DNA from: a virus
Length of the DNA stretch: 31,246 bases
Reading direction: 5' to 3' (one strand)
IMG/VR virus record: IMGVR_UViG_3300033153_005453
Coordinates: 1 to 31,246 of that record
Below the pieces are notes generated by a model. That model ran no database searches. It worked only from the letters and a program-made list of their open reading frames with translations, and had not been told where the DNA came from. Numbering within the stretch: position 1 is the stretch's first letter; every line of letters starts with the position of its first letter. Position numbers and translations under genes: made by a program. Of this stretch, positions 3,671 through 27,379 are shown piece after piece.

Positions 3671-3943
3671 ATGATAAGTAAAGATATTTTTAACACAGAC
3701 GAAGATGAATTTGATTTCACTAATATAGATTTTGAATCGTATGAAGATTTTTTGTATAACCCTGTGGGTGTCCATATTGATCCAGAAACCAGAGTAGATG
3801 TTATTCAAAATGCCCAAGTAATTAAAACTGATTCATGGGAAAATATTGTCGCATGGATAAACGACAATTTCAATAAATTATCTGGTAAATTTGATATATC
3901 ACATCAAGGTGCGGTATTGCACACCATAACATTATCAAGTTAA
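3671..3943 (+). CDS. Small acidic late protein, unknown
   Basis: This 90-residue protein is very acidic in its first half (NTDEDEFDFTNIDFESYEDF). It has no transmembrane segment or known motif. GGAG at 3659-3662 precedes the ATG, and a perfect late promoter lies just upstream, so expression with virion genes is likely. Its 3' end overlaps the oppositely oriented homing endonuclease by nine bases, so the HEN has settled directly behind it. The function is not recognised; acidic late proteins of this size can be minor virion or assembly factors. Confidence 0.65.
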   Translation: MISKDIFNTDEDEFDFTNIDFESYEDFLYNPVGVHIDPETRVDVIQNAQVIKTDSWENIVAWINDNFNKLSGKFDISHQGAVLHTITLSS

Positions 3944-4882
3944 CGTGTTGATAATTTGTTGATATTGTTCCTCTGTAAAATCTGACTTGTATCGCCACAA
4001 TCTATTATGAGCTAAATTAAGACCTGATTTCTTTTTTAATGCTCTTATTAAAGTAGTTCTAGGAATTTTACCACATTTAACTGCTTCTGTTATAGATTTA
4101 TATTCGTGTATTAATACACCAGTTATATTCAACTCTAATACCTTTTTACATAACGAATTATTTCTTAATTTTTCTTTAGTTTCTTCTGAAACTATCCGTC
4201 CTTTTAAAGATTCTGAAATTTTAAGTTTAGTTTCATCGGATATAACCAAATTCCTCATTTTTTCTTTAGTTTCATCTGAATGTTTTTTACCAAGATTAGC
4301 TTGTCTCAGTTTTTCTTTAGTTTCGTCTGAACGTGGTTTACCATAAAGTGGGTGATTTGACCCACTCATACGTTCACTCATTTTTTTCTTCCATTCTTCT
4401 GAATGTGTTTTACCATAATTATGGTGGTTCTCCCCACTCATTTTTTTAATACTTTCTTCAGTGTGTTTCATGCCAAGAGTAGCTTGTCTCATTTTTTCTT
4501 TAGTTTCATCAGAGAATTTTTTACCATAAAAGTGATGTTTTTCTCCTTTAAGTGCTTCTGATATTTTATTCCTTGTTTCTTCGGAACGGATATAATTATC
4601 ACCACCAGAAGTCATATTATACCCAACACCATCATACGTGTCATAATAAGCTATCCATTTAATTTCAGATTCATTGAGTTGATCTATGTTTTCATTCGTA
4701 TCATCAATAACTTCAAATTGAAAATTTTCAACACCATACTTCCGCAAAGCGTTATTAATAGCAAAATCAGAACCACTTTTAGTCTTTGATTTATGTGCTG
4801 TCCACCTTTTGAGTGGATCATTTATAGTTTGTCCAACATACTTCTTGTTATTAACTAAATTTGTTATTAAATAAATGTACAT
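3935..4882 (-). CDS. GIY-YIG homing endonuclease with NUMOD3 repeats (HEN1)
   Basis: A 315-residue free-standing homing endonuclease that would cut a homologous HEN-free site and copy itself in. The N-terminus MYIYLITNLVNNKKYVGQT carries both halves of the GIY-YIG motif. RW follows at about 27, and a conserved Glu lies in NESEIKWIAYYDT. After that come many copies of a short NUMOD3 DNA-binding motif (DETKEKMRQ type, about 110-250). The tail is a NUMOD1/HTH-like segment (KKVLELNITGVLIHEYKSIT). The start is chosen at ATG 4882 because AGGAGG lies at 4887-4892; the frame opens upstream with TTG at 4918. It is transcribed against both neighbours and has its own late promoter. Confidence 0.92.
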   Translation of the reverse strand: MYIYLITNLVNNKKYVGQTINDPLKRWTAHKSKTKSGSDFAINNALRKYGVENFQFEVIDDTNENIDQLNESEIKWIAYYDTYDGVGYNMTSGGDNYIRSEETRNKISEALKGEKHHFYGKKFSDETKEKMRQATLGMKHTEESIKKMSGENHHNYGKTHSEEWKKKMSERMSGSNHPLYGKPRSDETKEKLRQANLGKKHSDETKEKMRNLVISDETKLKISESLKGRIVSEETKEKLRNNSLCKKVLELNITGVLIHEYKSITEAVKCGKIPRTTLIRALKKKSGLNLAHNRLWRYKSDFTEEQYQQIINTLT

Positions 4883-4908
4883 TAATCCTCCTGTCATGTA
4901 TATACCAT

Positions 4909-4916
4909 TATTTATC
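4909..4916 (-). promoter_or_regulatory. Late promoter of HEN1 (GATAAATA)
   Basis: GATAAATA on the minus strand, differing from the T4 octamer only in the first base. If transcription starts six bases beyond it, the leader is about 21 bases and includes the strong AGGAGG site of HEN1. It stands back to back with the plus-strand late promoter at 4934. Confidence 0.6.
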
Positions 4917-4933
4917 AATTTTATTTACATTTG

Positions 4934-6013: not shown

Positions 6014-7024
6014 TTAATCTTCTGGGCGTAGTTCACCATCATTAACTTCTATGATGTCATTAACTGCATCAAAATCAAAAAGTTTAAGGTAGTGATCTTT
6101 GAAAGTTGATTTCTGGAATTTAACTAACCCCCCATCATCATCTTCATAACTATACCAAGAACTTCCTTTGGAATGTGCTACTAGTTCAGCTTTTTCTGCA
6201 AGTTCAAGTAATCCATCAATAGGATCGACACCTTTATCATAAGGAACTTCTAAACGAATTTTACGACCAAGTTGTGTGTATCTTGATTTAGTAGTTTCGG
6301 CAGTAATTTTGACTCCGACCACATCAGTATCTTCTTTCAATTTTAACTTAGATAATGCAACTATTAATGATGGAAAAAAAATCATACCTTCACCACCACT
6401 AGGAATGATAGTACCAAGACCATTTTTCAAATCTTGATTTTTGTATGCATGTGAAGTCATGATGCAAAAATTATCACGTTCACTAATCTTGTGATTAATG
6501 TTCTTTGCAAATTGTTTAATACGTTTTGCAAAAAGTCCCATATCAGTAGTCACTTTACCTTTATTGAAATTTTCCATTTCAGCTTCAGTTTCCATACCAG
6601 ACAATGAATCAATTACATAACATACCTTATCATCATCACCAAAACTATTAAAAATGGCCGACATATTAGCAGTTGCTTCTTCAATTGTTTTCACATTGAC
6701 TGTGGTAAATTTATCTTCGGACATATCAATACCAATCTTTTCCATATATTTTTTATGGATAGACCGTTCTGAATCAAGATATACTATATGATATCCTTTG
6801 TCTTGTGCTTGTTTTGCAATCATGGATGCAATAAATGTCTTACCTGAACCTTGTAGTCCAAATAACAATACAGTACGTCTGTTTGGTATACCACGATTAA
6901 AATCACCAGTAAGATTAAAATTCAATGCGTGATTACCTGATGATAACCATACATCAGATTCAGCACTACCAGTAGACGCTTTAACTTTTTCCAGTGCTTT
7001 TTTCATTTTGGTTATGTCAACCAT
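6014..7024 (-). CDS. uvsX: UvsX/RecA-family strand-exchange recombinase
   Basis: This 336-residue recombinase forms filaments on single-stranded DNA and drives strand exchange and recombination-dependent replication in T4-type phages. It has Walker A GLQGSGKT (56-63), a probable catalytic Glu in YLDSERS (about 83-89), and Walker B YVID (136-139) followed by SLSGME. It is shorter than T4 UvsX (391), and its Walker A is closer to the RecA form than to the T4 form. The ribosome-binding site AAGGGG is at 7034-7039, nine bases before ATG. It is preceded by an unusual leader with promoter, hairpins and terminator (7070-7193). The UvsY-like and UvsW proteins are encoded in the other early block. Confidence 0.92.
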   Translation of the reverse strand: MVDITKMKKALEKVKASTGSAESDVWLSSGNHALNFNLTGDFNRGIPNRRTVLLFGLQGSGKTFIASMIAKQAQDKGYHIVYLDSERSIHKKYMEKIGIDMSEDKFTTVNVKTIEEATANMSAIFNSFGDDDKVCYVIDSLSGMETEAEMENFNKGKVTTDMGLFAKRIKQFAKNINHKISERDNFCIMTSHAYKNQDLKNGLGTIIPSGGEGMIFFPSLIVALSKLKLKEDTDVVGVKITAETTKSRYTQLGRKIRLEVPYDKGVDPIDGLLELAEKAELVAHSKGSSWYSYEDDDGGLVKFQKSTFKDHYLKLFDFDAVNDIIEVNDGELRPED

Positions 7025-7069
7025 TATATATTTCCCCTTTTATTCTTATTATTTTCTTGGAGTGTACAA

Positions 7070-7158
7070 CAAAAAAAAGGGCAACACAATAATTATGTTG
7101 CCCTTTTGTCCAAATGGACTAAAGTTTTTGCGTGAACTAAGGGGTTCACGGCTTTGAG
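7070..7158 (-). ncRNA. Putative phage small RNA or uvsX leader attenuator
   Basis: From the promoter at 7165-7193 a transcript would begin near 7158 and reach the terminator at 7075-7107, giving about 90 nt. Three hairpins are visible: CGTGAAC/GTTCACG (7131-7150, six-base loop reading CCCUUA in the RNA), GTCC/GGAC (7108-7119), and the GC-rich terminator stem followed by eight U. With its adjacent base the first loop offers CCCCUU, complementary to the AAGGGG site of uvsX downstream. It could therefore be a stand-alone RNA acting on SD sequences, or a leader that controls uvsX by termination and SD pairing. I saw no reading frame or tRNA fold. Function is inference. Confidence 0.6.
7075..7107 (-). 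terminator. Intrinsic terminator upstream of uvsX
   Basis: A 12-bp perfect stem (7075-7086 with 7096-7107) with a nine-base loop, followed on the minus strand by a run of eight T (7071-7078, partly in the stem). On the plus strand only four T follow, so it mainly acts on minus-strand transcripts. It sits between a strong promoter and uvsX. Confidence 0.9.
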
Positions 7159-7164
7159 GAATTC

Positions 7165-7193
7165 ATCTTACCTAACTGTAATAATGTTGTCAA
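7165..7193 (-). promoter_or_regulatory. Sigma70-type early promoter for the leader/sRNA
   Basis: TTGACA (7188-7193), 17-base spacer, TAAGAT (7165-7170) on the minus strand. It lies immediately after the stop of the upstream gene at 7200. The -35 is perfect and the -10 matches four of six. Confidence 0.75.
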
Positions 7194-7199
7194 CTAATA

Positions 7200-7550
7200 T
7201 TATAAATCTAAAAAAGCTATTGCGTCGAATGCTGTTATTTTTTTTGTGAAAACTTTTTCAAACAATTCGTCTTTAGCAATATTATTATGTATATCACCCC
7301 AATAACAGGCCAAATAAAGTACACCATCTTTTTTCACAAATATAGGCGAACCTTTATCTTTTTCAGTTGTACTAGTATAATAAATTAAATATTCATCAAG
7401 TAAAGTCACGTCCACATTATGTCCTAATAACATCTTACGATTATTATCAGTATAAACGTGTATGCCACCATTAGACGAAGACTTAAATTTATAAAAAGCA
7501 GCAGGTTTACCACTCCTTTTTGAATATTCATAATTCGTTATTTTTTTCAT
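7200..7550 (-). CDS. Hypothetical early protein
   Basis: This 116-residue protein has a basic N-terminus (MKKITNYEYSKRSGK). The middle is beta-rich (FYKFKSSSNGGIHVYTD, YLIYYTSTT, VLYLACYWGD) and the C-terminus helical (KKITAFDAIAFLDL). There are no transmembrane segments and no catalytic motif that I can name. It overlaps the upstream gene by four bases, so the pair is translationally coupled under the consensus promoter at 7925-7953. The family is not recognised. Confidence 0.65.
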   Translation of the reverse strand: MKKITNYEYSKRSGKPAAFYKFKSSSNGGIHVYTDNNRKMLLGHNVDVTLLDEYLIYYTSTTEKDKGSPIFVKKDGVLYLACYWGDIHNNIAKDELFEKVFTKKITAFDAIAFLDL

Positions 7551-7924: not shown

Positions 7925-7953
7925 ATTATAGATTGAAAACTTTACCTTGTCAA
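7925..7953 (-). promoter_or_regulatory. Perfect-consensus sigma70 early promoter
   Basis: TTGACA (7948-7953), 17-base spacer, TATAAT (7925-7930) on the minus strand. The predicted start near 7918 leaves an 18-base leader containing GGGAG before the gene at 7900. It lies in the 81-bp gap after phoH. Confidence 0.88.
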
Positions 7954-8734: not shown

Positions 8735-8814
8735 TATGTTTCCTTATTGGTTGTTCATATAATTATTTACTATTTTTAACAGACATATGAGACTGTCATA
8801 CTCATTTTAAAAAC

Positions 8815-8822
8815 GATAAATA
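8815..8822 (+). promoter_or_regulatory. Late promoter (GATAAATA)
   Basis: GATAAATA 33 bases before the start at 8856, with the first-base G variant seen at several other sites in this window. It lies in the divergent region 8735-8855, where no convincing early promoter for phoH was found. Confidence 0.6.
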
Positions 8823-8855
8823 ACACTAAATAGAACACTAAAAGGAGTGTACCAA

Positions 8856-9960: not shown

Positions 9961-10338
9961 ATGAGTTCTAAACTTGAAGACACCTTTGGACTTAATGCTT
10001 CTGATGATCCTTTGTTAAAGGAACTTGAAGAACGTTATAACTTTTCAGAAAATCCTAATCTGAACGAAGTTGCACAACTTGCGCTTAAAGCATACAAAGA
10101 GCAAATGTTAGATGTTTCAAACTTTGATCCAAAATATCGTGCTCGTAATATCGAAGTTGCACAAACATTTCTGTTACTTGCAAAAGATGCTCTTGCTAAA
10201 GAAGAAGATTTACGTCTTAAAGAAGAAAAACAAAACGAAGGTAAGAAAGATAGTGATGATGAATCTAAAGATAAAAAAGAAACATTTGACCGTGATGAAT
10301 TCCTTGTTGAATTAAAAAACGCAGGTAAGAAAGCATAA
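9961..10338 (+). CDS. Probable small terminase subunit (T4 gp16-like)
   Basis: This 125-residue helical protein begins MSSKLEDTFGLN at an ATG four bases after the previous stop; a longer upstream frame overlaps that gene and is not used. The core reads ALKAYKEQMLDVSNFDPKYR then EVAQTFLLLAKDALAKEEDL. This matches my memory of myovirus small terminases (Y-x-x-L-M-D-hydrophobic...R...EVA...L-x-x-A). A highly charged tail follows. In T4 the small subunit recognises DNA and stimulates the gp17 motor. Here terL lies 5.4 kb downstream on the same strand with lysis genes and HENs between, so synteny gives only partial support. Confidence 0.55.
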   Translation: MSSKLEDTFGLNASDDPLLKELEERYNFSENPNLNEVAQLALKAYKEQMLDVSNFDPKYRARNIEVAQTFLLLAKDALAKEEDLRLKEEKQNEGKKDSDDESKDKKETFDRDEFLVELKNAGKKA

Positions 10339-10988
10339 TGTACATATATTGTATTACAAATTTAGTTAATAACAAAAAATATGTTGGACAGACCATTAAT
10401 GATCCCGAAGATAGATGGAAACAGCATGTAAATTATTCAAGAAGAAGTAAATTTGCAATACATAATGCATTTACTAAATATGGTATTGATAGTTTCAATT
10501 TCGAAGTAATAGATGAATCAGCTAACAACATTGATGAACTCAATGATTTAGAGGAATTCTATATCTCATTCTATGATACATTTTATGGACATGGTTATAA
10601 CATGACATCTGGTGGTGATAATGCTTTACATACTGAAGAAACTAAGAAAAAAATTAGTGAAGGTAACAAAAGTAAAAAACTTTCAGAAGAAGCTAAAAAG
10701 AAAATAGGTGATGCTAATAGAGGTAATACTTATTGGGTAGGTAAATCTCATTCAGAAGAATCCAAACAAAAAATGTCAATAACTCGTAAAGATAGAAATG
10801 GCATTCAATCTCATTCATCCAAAAAAGTAGTACAAATAGATAAAGATACTGGTGAAGAAATAGCTTGTTGGTTTTCTATGAATGAAGTACAAAGAGAAAT
10901 AGGAATTATGCAACAAAATATATCAAAATGTTGTTTAAATAGAAAATATTTTAAAACTGCTGGTGGATTTATGTGGAGATACTTATGA
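10338..10988 (+). CDS. GIY-YIG homing endonuclease (HEN2)
   Basis: This 216-residue protein opens MYIYCITNLVNNKKYVGQT, almost identical to HEN1, then DRWKQH and a Glu-containing segment (DLEEFYISFYDT). Two or three NUMOD3 motifs (TEETKKKISEGNKSKK, SEEAKKKIGDANRG, SEESKQKMS) follow. The C-terminal NUMOD1-like domain is KKVVQIDKDTGEEIACWFSM with a final GGFMWRYL. Its start shares one base with the small terminase stop (TAATG) and its end overlaps the next gene by four bases (ATGA). It thus fits the operon without adding a promoter. It probably moves into the terS region by double-strand-break repair. Confidence 0.92.
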   Translation: MYIYCITNLVNNKKYVGQTINDPEDRWKQHVNYSRRSKFAIHNAFTKYGIDSFNFEVIDESANNIDELNDLEEFYISFYDTFYGHGYNMTSGGDNALHTEETKKKISEGNKSKKLSEEAKKKIGDANRGNTYWVGKSHSEESKQKMSITRKDRNGIQSHSSKKVVQIDKDTGEEIACWFSMNEVQREIGIMQQNISKCCLNRKYFKTAGGFMWRYL

Positions 10989-12601: not shown

Positions 12602-12976
12602 ATGTACGCAAAACTTTTAGGTGGTGCAGCAGTTGCACTCATTATATATTTTGGATACCTCTATGTGTCCAATCTTCAAGAAAAAAACTCAATCCTTCAT
12701 GCTGATGTTGCAAAACTTCAACTTGCTAATGATGCATTAGTTGCTGAGAAGAAACAATTCAAAGAAAATCTTGCTAAGACTGAATCACTTAACAAAGAAC
12801 TCAACATCGAATTTAAAAAAGCAGTTGAATCTAAGAATGCAGTAATCAGATTATTCTCAGACCATAACTTCACCAAGATTTTTAATAAGCGTCCAACTTG
12901 GATTATCAAGAAAATGAACGCTGCTACAGTAAAGATTTTTAATGCTATAGAACAGGCATCTAAAAATGAAGAATGA
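12602..12976 (+). CDS. Putative inner-membrane spanin (Rz-like)
   Basis: This 124-residue protein has an N-terminal transmembrane anchor (about 6-24, LLGGAAVALIIYFGYLYV). A long periplasmic coiled coil follows (about 27-80), then a C-terminal part, LFSDHNFTKIFNKRPTWI with MNAATVKIFNAIE. N-in/C-out topology with a coiled coil is the i-spanin design, which together with an outer-membrane lipoprotein fuses the two membranes in the last step of lysis. The lipoprotein gene follows, but a GIY-YIG gene has inserted between them and overlaps the last 11 bases. The ribosome-binding site is in a hairpin. Confidence 0.7.
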   Translation: MYAKLLGGAAVALIIYFGYLYVSNLQEKNSILHADVAKLQLANDALVAEKKQFKENLAKTESLNKELNIEFKKAVESKNAVIRLFSDHNFTKIFNKRPTWIIKKMNAATVKIFNAIEQASKNEE

Positions 12977-13781
12977 ATTCTATGTATACGAACTACAATA
13001 TCCAGATAGCACTCCTTTTTGTGTCGGGAAGGGTAAAGGTTCACGAATTGATAAGCATTTTATGAATTCTAATAATCAGAACGCATTAAAACAAAACATT
13101 ATCAATAAAATAAGACGAAACGGTGATGAACCTATATCAGTAATCAAAGAATCAAATCTCAGTGAAGAAGCAGCATTTGAAGTTGAAAAATCCTTAATAG
13201 ATTATTATGGTAGACGAGATATAGGTACTGACATTCTATCAAACATGACTGATGGTGGTGAAGGAGTTAGTGGTAGAATATGTTCAGAAAAAACCAAGAA
13301 AAAAATAAGTAAGGGTAATACGGGAAAAGTGCGTTCTGATGAATTTATACAAATGTGTAAATCTAATTATTTAAAAAGAAAAACAGAAATAATAGAGTCA
13401 GTTTCAAAATCGCGTTTGGGGTCGAAACTCTCAGATGAAACTAAAAAGAAGATGTCTGATTCTGCTAAAGGTAAACCCAAATCAGAAAAACATAAACAAA
13501 ACATATCTAACGCGCGTAAGGGTAAGAAACTCTCAGAAGAACACAAACAAAAAATATCAGATTCAAAAAAAGGAACTACCGCATGGAACAAGGGTCAAAC
13601 AGGATTTCAATCAAAAAGTTCTAAAAAAGTTATTCAGATAGATAAGGTTACTGGTGAAGAAATAGCTTGTTGGGGATCATCAATGGATGTTAAACGTGAA
13701 TTAAACATAACATCTTCAAGTATATTGAAAGTTTGTTACGGTGACTTAAATCTGCTGGTGGATTCAAATGGAATTTTGTAA
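12966..13781 (+). CDS. GIY-YIG homing endonuclease with frameshifted C-terminus (HEN3)
   Basis: A 271-residue protein of a different GIY-YIG subtype from HEN1 and HEN2. Its nuclease motif is FYVYELQYPDSTPFCVGKGK, then SRIDKHF and a Glu in FEVEKSLIDYYG. NUMOD3 repeats (SDETKKKMSDSAKGK and others) and a NUMOD1-like tail (KKVIQIDKVTGEEIACWGSS) follow. The last 13 or so residues (LNLLVDSNGIL) do not match HEN2, but the +1 frame there reads SAGGFKWNF, matching HEN2 TAGGFMWRYL. One base has been lost near 13743-13750, or is missing from the sequence. It separates the two spanin genes. Confidence 0.88.
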   Translation: MKNEFYVYELQYPDSTPFCVGKGKGSRIDKHFMNSNNQNALKQNIINKIRRNGDEPISVIKESNLSEEAAFEVEKSLIDYYGRRDIGTDILSNMTDGGEGVSGRICSEKTKKKISKGNTGKVRSDEFIQMCKSNYLKRKTEIIESVSKSRLGSKLSDETKKKMSDSAKGKPKSEKHKQNISNARKGKKLSEEHKQKISDSKKGTTAWNKGQTGFQSKSSKKVIQIDKVTGEEIACWGSSMDVKRELNITSSSILKVCYGDLNLLVDSNGIL

Positions 13782-14834: not shown

Positions 14835-15767
14835 ATGTTTGGTTATGTTTATTTGATTACGAATTTGATTAACAAAAAGAAATATATAGGAATGCATCAA
14901 TCTGAAGAATTTGATGAAAAATATTATGGTTCTGGGGTATTGATAAAAGAAGCTGTCAAAGAATATGGTAAAGAAATTTTCAAAGTAGAAGTACTTCATT
15001 GGTGTGAAACAGCAGAGGATCTATTACTAACAGAAGTCATGGAACTAAAAGTAAACAACGTGGTTGAAAGTGATGAGTATTACAATATGATTGACAACAT
15101 ATCTCCTATATTATTTGGGAAAGATAATGGATTCTATGGCAGAAAACATACTGATGAAACTAAACACAAAATATCAAAAGCAAACTTAGGACGTTCTATA
15201 TCAGACGAACACTATACAAAATTGATGGATTATGTGTGCTCTGAAGAAGGGATAGCTCATTACGAAAGATTAAGTGAAATGAAACTTGGTGTTCCTTTAT
15301 CAGAAGAACACAAACAAAAAATTATAGACACTACCACTACTGATGAATTTAAAACTAAACATTCAGAAATATTATTAGAATATTGGGATAATGAAGAAAA
15401 CTATAACAGAGTTTACACTGATGAACATAGAGCATTGATTTCAAAACGTTTCAAAGACATACCTAAATCAGAAATCCACCGTAAGAAGATAGGTGATAGT
15501 CACAGAGGAACAATTAAACCTTGGGTATCTGAAATTATAAATAAAGATCCAGATAAAATTAGAAAAACTGCCGAAAAACACAGAGGAATGAAACGTAGTA
15601 TAGAAACATGTATGAAAATATCAGAATCCAGAAAAGGAAAACCGGCTAATAACAAAGGTAAGATGTGGATTCATAACCCAGAATTAAAAATAAGAAAATT
15701 TATAAGTAAAAACGAAAGTATACCAAATGGATGGTATAGGGGATTAGGGAAGTTTAAAAACATATGA
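14835..15767 (+). CDS. GIY-YIG homing endonuclease upstream of terL (HEN4)
   Basis: This 310-residue protein opens FGYVYLITNLINKKKYIGMH, then YYGSG and a Glu-containing segment near 68. Several NUMOD3 motifs follow (DETKHKISKANLGR, SEEHKQKI, IETCMKISESRKGK). The last 35 residues have KMWIHNPELKIRKFISKNE and IPNGWYRG, a C-terminal motif I know from phage homing endonucleases (W-x-x-N ... P-x-GW-x-x-G). AGAGG at 14821-14825 precedes the ATG. The stop overlaps the terminase start in ATGA, so terminase translation is probably coupled to this selfish gene. The target is likely the terL start region of HEN-free relatives. Confidence 0.92.
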   Translation: MFGYVYLITNLINKKKYIGMHQSEEFDEKYYGSGVLIKEAVKEYGKEIFKVEVLHWCETAEDLLLTEVMELKVNNVVESDEYYNMIDNISPILFGKDNGFYGRKHTDETKHKISKANLGRSISDEHYTKLMDYVCSEEGIAHYERLSEMKLGVPLSEEHKQKIIDTTTTDEFKTKHSEILLEYWDNEENYNRVYTDEHRALISKRFKDIPKSEIHRKKIGDSHRGTIKPWVSEIINKDPDKIRKTAEKHRGMKRSIETCMKISESRKGKPANNKGKMWIHNPELKIRKFISKNESIPNGWYRGLGKFKNI

Positions 15768-20135: not shown

Positions 20136-20495
20136 TTAAAATTCGATCAACCAATCTAAAGACATTAATGTTGATGTCTTCATATTGATGTCACTTAAAT
20201 TTGAAACATTAATTTGTTCAAATTCAATATCAATTTCTTCTTCTTTTAATACGTCAAATTCTTTATTGAATGTTTCTAAATTTTCATCAAGAATTTTCAT
20301 TGAACCATTCTCAATTTCTTCACCGTACTTTATGTAAAGTTCGTTTCTTTTAGTATCATAAACTTCTAAAACTTCATTAAGTTCTTTAATGATTTTTACC
20401 AACTTAACACTAATGTTAATTGATAAATCCTTATTAGATAATTCTTTTAATGCTTCTACACTACTTAGTACTACACTTACTGTTAATTCACTCAT
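20136..20495 (-). CDS. Helical tail-region protein, DUF1617-like
   Basis: This 119-residue, highly helical protein has a layout I associate with DUF1617 tail-region proteins. It has a long N-terminal helix (KLVKIIKELNEVLEVYDTKR), NELYIKYGEE, an acidic middle (FNKEFDVLKEEEIDIEFEQI), and an ending LMSLDWLIEF. That family is found near tail genes of many phages with no known function. AAGGGG lies close upstream of the ATG. It sits between the fibre and a baseplate-associated gene, so a fibre-attachment or assembly role is possible. Confidence 0.5.
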   Translation of the reverse strand: MSELTVSVVLSSVEALKELSNKDLSINISVKLVKIIKELNEVLEVYDTKRNELYIKYGEEIENGSMKILDENLETFNKEFDVLKEEEIDIEFEQINVSNLSDINMKTSTLMSLDWLIEF

Positions 20496-25700: not shown

Positions 25701-25920
25701 TAACAGATGTTTCTAATTTTGCAGTAGGTAAGAAATTTTCCTGACTTCTGCGTTCAAGCATATACATCATCTGATCTGTAATAGCAGCAACAACTTGAAT
25801 CAATACTTGACCAGTGGAACTCATATAAGCATCTTTCCACTCATCTTTCGCTGATACCAATCTGGTAACTTCTTGTACTAATTCATCGTATGAATATTTT
25901 GTGTAGTCAAAATTAGCCAT
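22786..25920 (-). CDS. Baseplate wedge protein, gp6/J-like, with two inserted lectin-like modules
   Basis: This 1044-residue protein is much longer than T4 gp6 (660). The N-terminal part (MANFDYTKYSYDELVQEVTR, VVAAITDQMMYMLERRSQEN, VNAIVNSIGYRPRR) and LRLLFGDGTSGEKPTG are typical of gp6/Mu gp47/gpJ proteins that form the baseplate wedge ring. Residues about 559-745 and 754-910 are two related modules (NLLIHSEELDDAVWSLTG; NRLLYNEELNNTVWIKTG). Each has a Pro-Asp-x-Gly-hydrophobic-T pattern, and the first ends QAENKGAVGKYIRTTS, resembling phage spike or concanavalin-like domains. Start ATG 25920 follows GGAG and shares one base with the HEN5 stop; the longer frame enters HEN5. Confidence 0.82.
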   Translation of the reverse strand: MANFDYTKYSYDELVQEVTRLVSAKDEWKDAYMSSTGQVLIQVVAAITDQMMYMLERRSQENFLPTAKLETSVNAIVNSIGYRPRRKVSASGTLSLTLVDGNGIPVQNTDTITIPKYSKLTFGDDVFVNTDDITLLSTQVYPYTFTIKEGTLVSLTYDPSDITGSLYLNDYIEIEDYLNIENTSFYIYTATQTFTDVIERVGDEAPIDSLSFAEATDEVYDLNNTNNGLRLLFGDGTSGEKPTGILTVKYIESSGNSVEVLTTDNNFVFDDYATELIDASSDTYKYTLTNTTTIDSGLNEETIDEVKKNAPSYVRTANRAASKNDYIFWVNRSGIGGIVDSNVYGEEEIGISVINANNVYIIYLTNDGLALSSNELSILDNYVDNYKIVTSQTIYEAATVIPLQIELKIKRSPTLTASSSEIYDVLKNDMVDYFEFAEGTLGKNTNHSEVVDHFHLLTIVKNGITRLISDYINIDIKALYAFSTPWESVNDIDITFTYGADGNVYTILLNDVPYSYTAQGGDTVTEVVGKLLQYIRLDLNVIPSVVSNVITLARDNSTAENLLIHSEELDDAVWSLTGTMTITPDADVAPNGLTVATTLNDTDAVITSNILQTASMTLDNNYKTVSVFIKKDSDTSRFPALYIKQSGGSSIQSFVSINTQTGATAWISGSVPTIVTDDFIDYWRISVTLQNNITNNVVEMGLYPAYSSTLGGAADGTLTGTITAFGLQAENKGAVGKYIRTTSKPLLLTYGERAIENRLLYNEELNNTVWIKTGTTITPDSLNDSDGFLTVDTVTFAGSAAGETVSQTINNIHSGTAYTFGWRAQEGSLSTAGFGAYDVTNAAWIVDPATTIKTYTATLDLYEESFVVPETCTSIRIHPVYKDNTAGTVYVGQSHLRITANSNDYIQSHEKQSFYYDEGFFITNTGTTILANAAINIPVQLPLSVLNNPESNQLFYPSSIEIIETDGTIIATDDGAGNIYGGTVDYITGVVTIPLLADDDYYIRYQQNVEQNFTSNERQAFSYSLPKTNYVDVTELLSTIEIIN

Positions 25921-26546
25921 TATACATATCTCCAATAATAACCACATGAGCAAAAATTATTTACTACTGCTTTTTGTATAGTTGTTTTATTTACTTTCAT
26001 TTCTTTTGCCGCTTCTTTTGCACTAAAATATATAGCTATTTCTTCACCATTATTCTTATCTATCTGTATTACTTTTTTACATCGTTTATTTAAAATTCCA
26101 ATTTTACCAAACATTGAATTTTTGTTGCCTGTTCTTCTTGATGCACTTTTACTTAATTTGCTTTTAGTTTCAGATGAAACTAATTTACCTTTATGAGCTA
26201 ATCCGATCTTTCTTTTATGTTCTTCTGATTTAGGAGCAAGTGTACGTATTCCATACGTTCCGTCACCACCCAATGTTGAATTATAACCATTTTTAAATGT
26301 ATCTAACTCAGAAATATAATATTTTTCTAATTCTTTACCTTCACTCGGATTTACACATGTATCTATAACTCTAAACGAAAAAGTGTCTCTCCCATATTTT
26401 GCTATAGCTTGATGAATTTTGAATTTTGAATTACCAATCTTGTTAGCTGACATCATGTGTTCTTTCCATCTAATAATTGGATCACGCTTGGTATATCCAA
26501 CATACTTCTTAAAATTCGTCAAATTTGTTATCAAATATATATACAT
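25920..26546 (-). CDS. GIY-YIG homing endonuclease between spike and wedge genes (HEN5)
   Basis: This 208-residue protein opens MYIYLITNLTNFKKYVGYT, then RWKEH and a Glu in GKELEKYYISELDT. NUMOD3-type segments are KSEEHKRKIGLAHKGK and SSETKSKLSKSASRR. The tail is a NUMOD1-like domain, KKVIQIDKNNGEEIAIYFSA, closing GYYWRYV. It is a paralogue of HEN1 and HEN2. Start ATG 26546 is chosen because it begins the nuclease domain; the frame is open further upstream inside the spike gene. The stop overlaps the wedge gene start (TAATG). A GATAAATA octamer lies five bases before the ATG and no ribosome-binding site is visible. Confidence 0.92.
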   Translation of the reverse strand: MYIYLITNLTNFKKYVGYTKRDPIIRWKEHMMSANKIGNSKFKIHQAIAKYGRDTFSFRVIDTCVNPSEGKELEKYYISELDTFKNGYNSTLGGDGTYGIRTLAPKSEEHKRKIGLAHKGKLVSSETKSKLSKSASRRTGNKNSMFGKIGILNKRCKKVIQIDKNNGEEIAIYFSAKEAAKEMKVNKTTIQKAVVNNFCSCGYYWRYV

Positions 26547-26551
26547 ATGTC

Positions 26552-26559
26552 TATTTATC
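26552..26559 (-). promoter_or_regulatory. Late promoter octamer five bases before HEN5
   Basis: GATAAATA on the minus strand, overlapping the TGA stop of the spike gene and separated from the HEN5 ATG by exactly five bases. Same geometry as at 21281 and 12282. Confidence 0.42.
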
Positions 26560-27379
26560 AATTTAGATTTATGGTTGGTGCTGTAACTGTAACTGCACCA
26601 CCAGCAGAAATCGTTACTGTTCCACCTGTTGTGATAGAGCAATTGTTACCAACATTAATGTCATAATTACTACCGACATCAATTTTTCCATTAGTTCCAA
26701 CCTTCACTCCATGTTCTCCACTAGTAGTTGTATTCTGATTTCCTTTCACTTCAATGTTATCATCACCAATAATTACTGTAGTTTTCGTAGCTGCTACGTG
26801 TTCTACAACATTACCATTATTGTCAGTTTCGATTCGTGTTCCACTAGGATGGTATACATGGAATCTGACATTATCAGGAGTATCATCTATTTCAATGACA
26901 ATCCCTGTTTCAGATCTGAATACTTTATTCTTTGGATAGACAGAAGCATACGCACTATTAGGTTCATCCCATGACCCACCAAATGCTGTTGAAACTCCCT
27001 TAGAAGTTGCTGCATTAATCGCAGCTACAGTCCCATCATCCTTCCTTGATAACGTAGGGATGTCTGGTACATCGTTTTGTATTGCAGGAGCAGAAGCAAA
27101 ATATACAGGATAACGAAAGTCACCATTCTCAAAGAAACAAAAAACATGACTATCCACAATAGGTACTGCGGCACTTCCTACATTCGCTGCACCACCAAAT
27201 GTTGAATCAGCAGGAATAGCCCAAGGAAGAACATTGTCATCAACATGCTCAAACATAGGATAAACCTTAATGCGAATGCGACCACTTTCTGTAGGATCAC
27301 TGACATCAATTACTACTCCCCTATAAAAACCATCAAATATATCAGTAGATTTTTCAATATCAAATGCACGATTAAACAT
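26558..27379 (-). CDS. Baseplate central spike (gp5/gpV-like)
   Basis: This 273-residue protein has an N-terminal OB-fold-like domain (about 13-100: FDGFYRGVVIDVSDPTESGR, PWAIPADST, HVFCFFENGDFRYPVYF). The C-terminal beta-helix (about 155-273) has short repeats such as VKGNQNTTT, KIDVGSNYDINVG and GGTVTISAGGAVTV. This is the membrane-piercing spike below the hub. The lysozyme domain found in T4 gp5 is absent, as in P2 gpV, so cell-wall cutting must come from elsewhere. It starts where gp25 stops. The predicted order spike, HEN5, wedge shows the HEN breaking a tight operon. Confidence 0.85.
   Translation of the reverse strand: MFNRAFDIEKSTDIFDGFYRGVVIDVSDPTESGRIRIKVYPMFEHVDDNVLPWAIPADSTFGGAANVGSAAVPIVDSHVFCFFENGDFRYPVYFASAPAIQNDVPDIPTLSRKDDGTVAAINAATSKGVSTAFGGSWDEPNSAYASVYPKNKVFRSETGIVIEIDDTPDNVRFHVYHPSGTRIETDNNGNVVEHVAATKTTVIIGDDNIEVKGNQNTTTSGEHGVKVGTNGKIDVGSNYDINVGNNCSITTGGTVTISAGGAVTVTAPTINLN

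Follow-up and report, generated by a model that had tools for sequence, protein, structure and literature searches.

A conserved promoter-hairpins-terminator unit ahead of the uvsX-like gene of an uncultured T4-like phage, a candidate small RNA

Genomic context of the RNA element

The window analysed in this study is the entire IMG/VR virus record IMGVR_UViG_3300033153_005453, with a length of 31,246 bases. Its gene set is T4-like yet distant from T4 and includes a UvsX-like recombinase, a UvsW/DNA-helicase-like protein, a UvsY-like protein and PhoH. The closest cultured relatives found were the Alishewanella phages Slicko01 and Slickus01, whose UvsX proteins showed about 44-45% identity. The RNA element is placed within the gene row phoH-117aa-116aa-uvsX, on the same strand as uvsX, and no gene is annotated opposite to it (Table 1).

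Relatives were gathered through UvsX, PhoH and terminase. Two contigs represent a near-identical phage and, as they carry zero differences within the element, are uninformative on its conservation. The element is retained in a single diverged contig, L013, a 75-kb IMG/VR contig with matching gene order that was found via the PhoH search. Five ORFs of the window encode GIY-YIG/NUMOD3 homing endonucleases (3935-4918(-), 10338-10988(+), 12966-13781(+), 14835-15767(+) and 25920-26642(-)). The first four are located in gaps of the L013 alignment and therefore look like recent insertions in the lineage of the window.

Table 1. Features of the window at and around the RNA element.
Feature	Position	Strand	Remarks
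uvsX-like recombinase gene	6014..7024	-	phrog_97 UvsX-like recombinase, E 2e-53; 53% aa identity in L013
uvsX ribosome-binding site AAGGGG	7034..7039	-	complementary to loop 1 in the window phage only
Predicted ~90-nt structured RNA	7069..7158	-	putative 5' end about 7 nt past the -10
Hairpin 3, intrinsic terminator with 8 U	7071..7107	-	best terminator in the scan
Hairpin 2, GTCC-ATTT-GGAC	7108..7119	-	RNA form GUCC-AUUU-GGAC
Hairpin 1, 7-bp stem, CGTGAAC-CCCTTA-GTTCACG	7131..7150	-	loop CCCUUA
C-rich loop 1, candidate seed for purine-rich targets	7138..7143	-	predicted unpaired probability about 0.8 (window leader), 1.0 (L013)
Sigma-70-like promoter of the RNA unit, TTGACA-N17-TAAGAT	7165..7193	-	TTGACA 7193-7188, TAAGAT 7170-7165; 10/12 consensus bases
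116-aa upstream ORF, function unknown	7200..7550	-	ends 7 nt before the -35
Consensus promoter TTGACA-17-TATAAT, operon head	7925..7953	-	12/12 bases; conserved in L013/G001

Structure of the RNA element

A TTGACA-N17-TAAGAT promoter followed by three hairpins within about 90 nt was found on the minus strand, as the original prediction had claimed. The terminator had been described there as a 12-bp stem plus eight T. The eight T are present, all of them on the 3' side, while the stem of hairpin 3 actually comprises 15 pairs (7107-7075, minus strand; AAAAGGGCAACATAA-TTA-TTGTGTTGCCCTTTT). A promoter of its own and an intrinsic terminator bound a short non-coding stretch, which at the level of sequence is the layout of an sRNA gene.

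The promoter hexamers by themselves are unexceptional in such AT-rich DNA, 78 being found versus 90 expected. The combination of a strong terminator with a promoter of at least 10/12 consensus bases located 30-160 bp upstream occurred at one terminator in the window and did not arise in any of 15 first-order Markov simulations, and each of the two phages carries one promoter-hairpins-terminator unit ahead of uvsX. A fold of -33.8 kcal/mol was predicted for the 90-nt RNA of the window, against -14.4 +/- 2.5 kcal/mol for shuffled sequences (z -7.7), and hairpins 1 and 2 still reached a z of -3.5 after removal of the terminator.

Two further observations concern the promoters. A second promoter-like match, TCGACG-18-TATAAT (7199-7228(-)), is situated just upstream of the main promoter, where it shares bases with the upstream stop codon. 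Members of one promoter class, TTGAC[AT]-17-TATAAT with TTTTCAATC ahead of the -10, are found in both phages: at the operon head of the window and at 59972(+), 23756(-) and 5087(-) of the L013/G001 contig.

Conservation in a diverged phage

Between the upstream ORF and uvsX, L013 carries the series GTGAAC-CCTTTA-GTTCAC, GCCC-ATTT-GGGC and a terminator with GGTAACA...TGTTACC. Identity between the two elements is about 80-81% (90-column windows), compared with an average of 52% for the adjoining ORF, 60% for uvsX, 71% for the 117-aa gene and 84% for PhoH. At the equivalent position of the promoter, L013 has a promoter-like TTGACT-N18-TATAGT which overlaps the upstream ORF at its stop codon; the position of this site is kept in surrounding DNA that is merely about 30-50% identical. 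The conserved block stops at the terminator; past that point the leader and the uvsX SD have diverged.

Absence of the hairpins and the loop from relatives had been named in advance as evidence against the unit. In L013 the hairpins are kept: the stem of hairpin 1 is unchanged, hairpin 2 carries a compensatory change from U-A to C-G, and hairpin 3 a compensatory change from C-G to U-A together with a change from A-U to G-U. Loop 1 has changed from CCCUUA to CCUUUA by a C-to-U substitution. Standard pairing is kept at 24 of the 25 pairs for which both sequences have letters, two of them changed on both sides and one from A-U to G-U. Random placement of the six stem substitutions yielded two or more compensated pairs, together with 24 or more retained pairs, in about 0.3% of trials (0.003), and sliding the partner columns by 1-3 destroyed the pairing. 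The RNA of L013 folds with a z of -6.4. Structure conserved with compensatory change, as looked for in sRNA genes, is hence seen in two sequences and at two compensatory pairs.

Column shuffles reached the observed values in 117 of 500 cases, with two distinct sequences and covariation on two pairs. As this control is weak with two sequences, most weight is carried by the conservation of the stretch and by the fold in both phages. A covariance model matched L013 at E 2e-23, a match which is given by construction because the model was built from both sequences.

The same gene order, an identity higher than that of the flanks, the compensatory changes and the promoter-like site together indicate that the element, judged by sequence comparison, is a conserved and self-contained RNA unit. 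The discrete unit of promoter, hairpins and terminator that had been postulated is thus borne out in one relative, L013.

Distribution and comparison with known RNAs

No Rfam family matched the element at the gathering threshold, and the weak sub-threshold matches were far below it and different in the two phages. Searches with the covariance model did not find the element in the full records of Slicko01 and Slickus01 or in more distant relatives; a weak match to the terminator alone was all that these searches gave. BLAST against phage and plasmid collections returned only fragments with chance E-values and no homologue in a cultured phage. Among viral contigs, an exact match to the hairpin-1 pattern was located inside a helicase-like gene and was therefore taken as a chance match; three matches to the hairpin-2 pattern were in coding-like DNA without the three-hairpin fold and were likewise attributed to chance. 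A relaxed hairpin-1 pattern run over 85,000 bacterial and archaeal genomes gave one match, ahead of a thioredoxin-like start in an Acidobacteria MAG; the other hairpins were lacking there, and the match was also judged to be due to chance. Since these searches were negative beyond the window phage and L013, the element is known from two lineages only. No paper linking uvsX, a terminator and a small RNA was found in the open-licence literature.

Small RNAs of temperate phages are well studied, while to our knowledge few are known from T4-like lytic phages. The part of a 2025 review that is used here describes PreS (~88 nt), VpdS, OOP (77 nt) and sar as phage sRNAs, and that part mentions no uvsX-linked RNA (PMC12197685). 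PreS of lambda and VpdS of VP882 are short phage RNAs, PreS being similar to the element in length; they belong to temperate phages and have validated partners, whereas the present element was predicted from the sequence of an uncultured T4-like phage and is compared with them by description (PMC12197685). Lambda OOP resembles it in being a short independent transcript, made from the pO promoter, that adjoins a DNA-metabolism gene, but OOP is antisense to cII while the present unit has the strand of uvsX and no annotated gene opposite (PMC12197685). An RNA unit that is absent from Rfam, lies beside a recombinase gene and is better conserved than the genes adjoining it is a concrete and testable candidate for control of recombination or of host take-over at the RNA level.

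Small RNA or leader of uvsX

We lean towards reading the element as a small RNA of the phage, with a terminator that at the same time limits readthrough into uvsX. RNA polymerase would initiate near 7158 from the unit's own promoter, transcribe hairpins 1 and 2 and for the most part halt at hairpin 3. The freed RNA of about 90 nt would expose a C-rich loop (CCCUUA in the window phage, CCUUUA in L013) and carry a conserved unpaired linker, GCAA...UUUAG; its U-rich 3' end would be of the Hfq-bound kind, and Hfq is a presumed partner. Its most likely action would be in trans, by base pairing with mRNAs of the phage or the host at purine-rich ribosome-binding sites, and termination at hairpin 3, if efficient, would have the additional effect of reducing readthrough into uvsX. 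A conserved block that ends at the terminator, followed by a divergent leader, suits a released RNA. It seems rather improbable that the element is, beyond this, a dedicated trans-acting sRNA in the recombination operon of a T4-like lytic phage, with a loop that serves as a general anti-SD seed and a production mechanically tied to uvsX supply via the shared terminator.

The main rival is a pure leader or attenuator. Transcription attenuators and leader terminators consist of a promoter, hairpins and an intrinsic terminator followed by the regulated gene, and the element shares this layout. The unit would then be a cis-acting leader in which hairpin 3, by premature termination of a regulated or a constitutive kind, determines the readthrough into uvsX, with the short RNA as a by-product; we regard this as possible but doubtful. 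In both phages uvsX starts about 45 nt past the end of the terminator, and consensus scans found no promoter between the two in either of them. Therefore, uvsX probably relies on polymerases that read through from either or both of the upstream promoters, which speaks for the terminator having some part in uvsX supply. Before the 3' arm of the terminator is made, a longer form of hairpin 2 can also borrow the terminator's A-rich base, at -18.2 versus -12.9 kcal/mol for hairpins 1 and 2. However, the completed terminator is more stable than this alternative by about 13-16 kcal/mol and each phage has a different alternative, no strong conserved antiterminator fold having been found in the window and L013. 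Moreover, the part conserved best, hairpin 1 with its loop, would be dispensable for simple leaky termination. A 2-nt deletion in L013 interrupts the sole reading frame through the hairpins (GTG AAC CCC TTA ...), and no obvious SD lies ahead of this frame; a leader-peptide attenuator was accordingly rejected as a candidate, and peptide-coupled attenuation is unlikely.

The broken reading frame, the inconsistent alternative fold and the end of conservation at the terminator led us to rank the small RNA first and the leader second. The two readings are not mutually exclusive.

Predicted pairing of loop 1 with ribosome-binding sites

RNAIII and RsaE of Staphylococcus are sRNAs with C-rich loops that pair with ribosome-binding sites. 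The element resembles them in its exposed C-rich hairpin loop able to pair with SDs. No sequence or family match was obtained for it.

The original prediction further held that loop 1 is complementary to the uvsX ribosome-binding site, and offered SD masking within a leader as one of two possible roles. The complementarity is real: CCCTTA with the flanking C is exactly complementary to the AAGGGG (7039-7034) located about 100 nt downstream. CCCCTTA and AAGGGG each occur alone at chance level. Blocking of uvsX translation by binding of CCCCUU to this site, in cis or in trans, would draw on a perfect 6-bp complementarity of -10.4 kcal/mol, which ties uvsX, at rank 3 of the 44 predicted starts of the window, for the best value with two others, including an alternative start that lies within phoH downstream of its first one. 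Against this, the complementarity is not kept by co-variation in L013, where the loop CCUUUA and the uvsX SD GAAGGAG pair at -5.5 kcal/mol and uvsX ranks 39th of 135. Any AAGG-type SD pairs with a C-rich loop, and loop 1 also pairs with the 5' arm of the terminator. In a joint ranking of 37 orthologous starts, the best match across both phages was a different gene, that of a 119-aa protein, with uvsX fourth. Masking of the uvsX SD did not hold up on this evidence and is quite unlikely. Matched combinations of loop and SD are slightly better than swapped ones (-10.4 versus -8.5 and -5.5 versus -4.3 kcal/mol), a hint that is too weak to build on.

Near-consensus SDs match loop 1 easily. As the C-rich loop suits SDs in general, the best joint match does not identify the 119-aa gene as the target of the candidate small RNA. 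The 119-aa ORF (20136-20495(-)) has the SD AAAGGGGA in both phages, and its orthologue is located at 46290(+) of G001. An ACTCC upstream of the uvsX SD (7056-7060(-)) is conserved in L013. A hairpin sequestering the SD through the corresponding ACUCC was considered and rejected: the two pair in both minimum-energy folds, with a stability no greater than that of shuffled sequences.

A possible replication origin

The T4 uvsY origin is a transcript-primed origin next to recombination genes, and by analogy the unit could be such an origin, or another DNA or RNA site beside these genes. A promoter and a putative short transcript do adjoin recombination genes, and at about 8 to 9 kb the GC skew switches sign, but this flip coincides with the divergent switch of gene direction and the compensatory changes indicate RNA structure rather than a DNA element, which makes an origin very improbable.

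As a separate observation, L013 also keeps the sequence TTTAAAAACGATAAATAACACTAAATAG that the window has at 8803-8832(+), between divergently oriented genes; this sequence is similar in appearance to a late promoter of T4.
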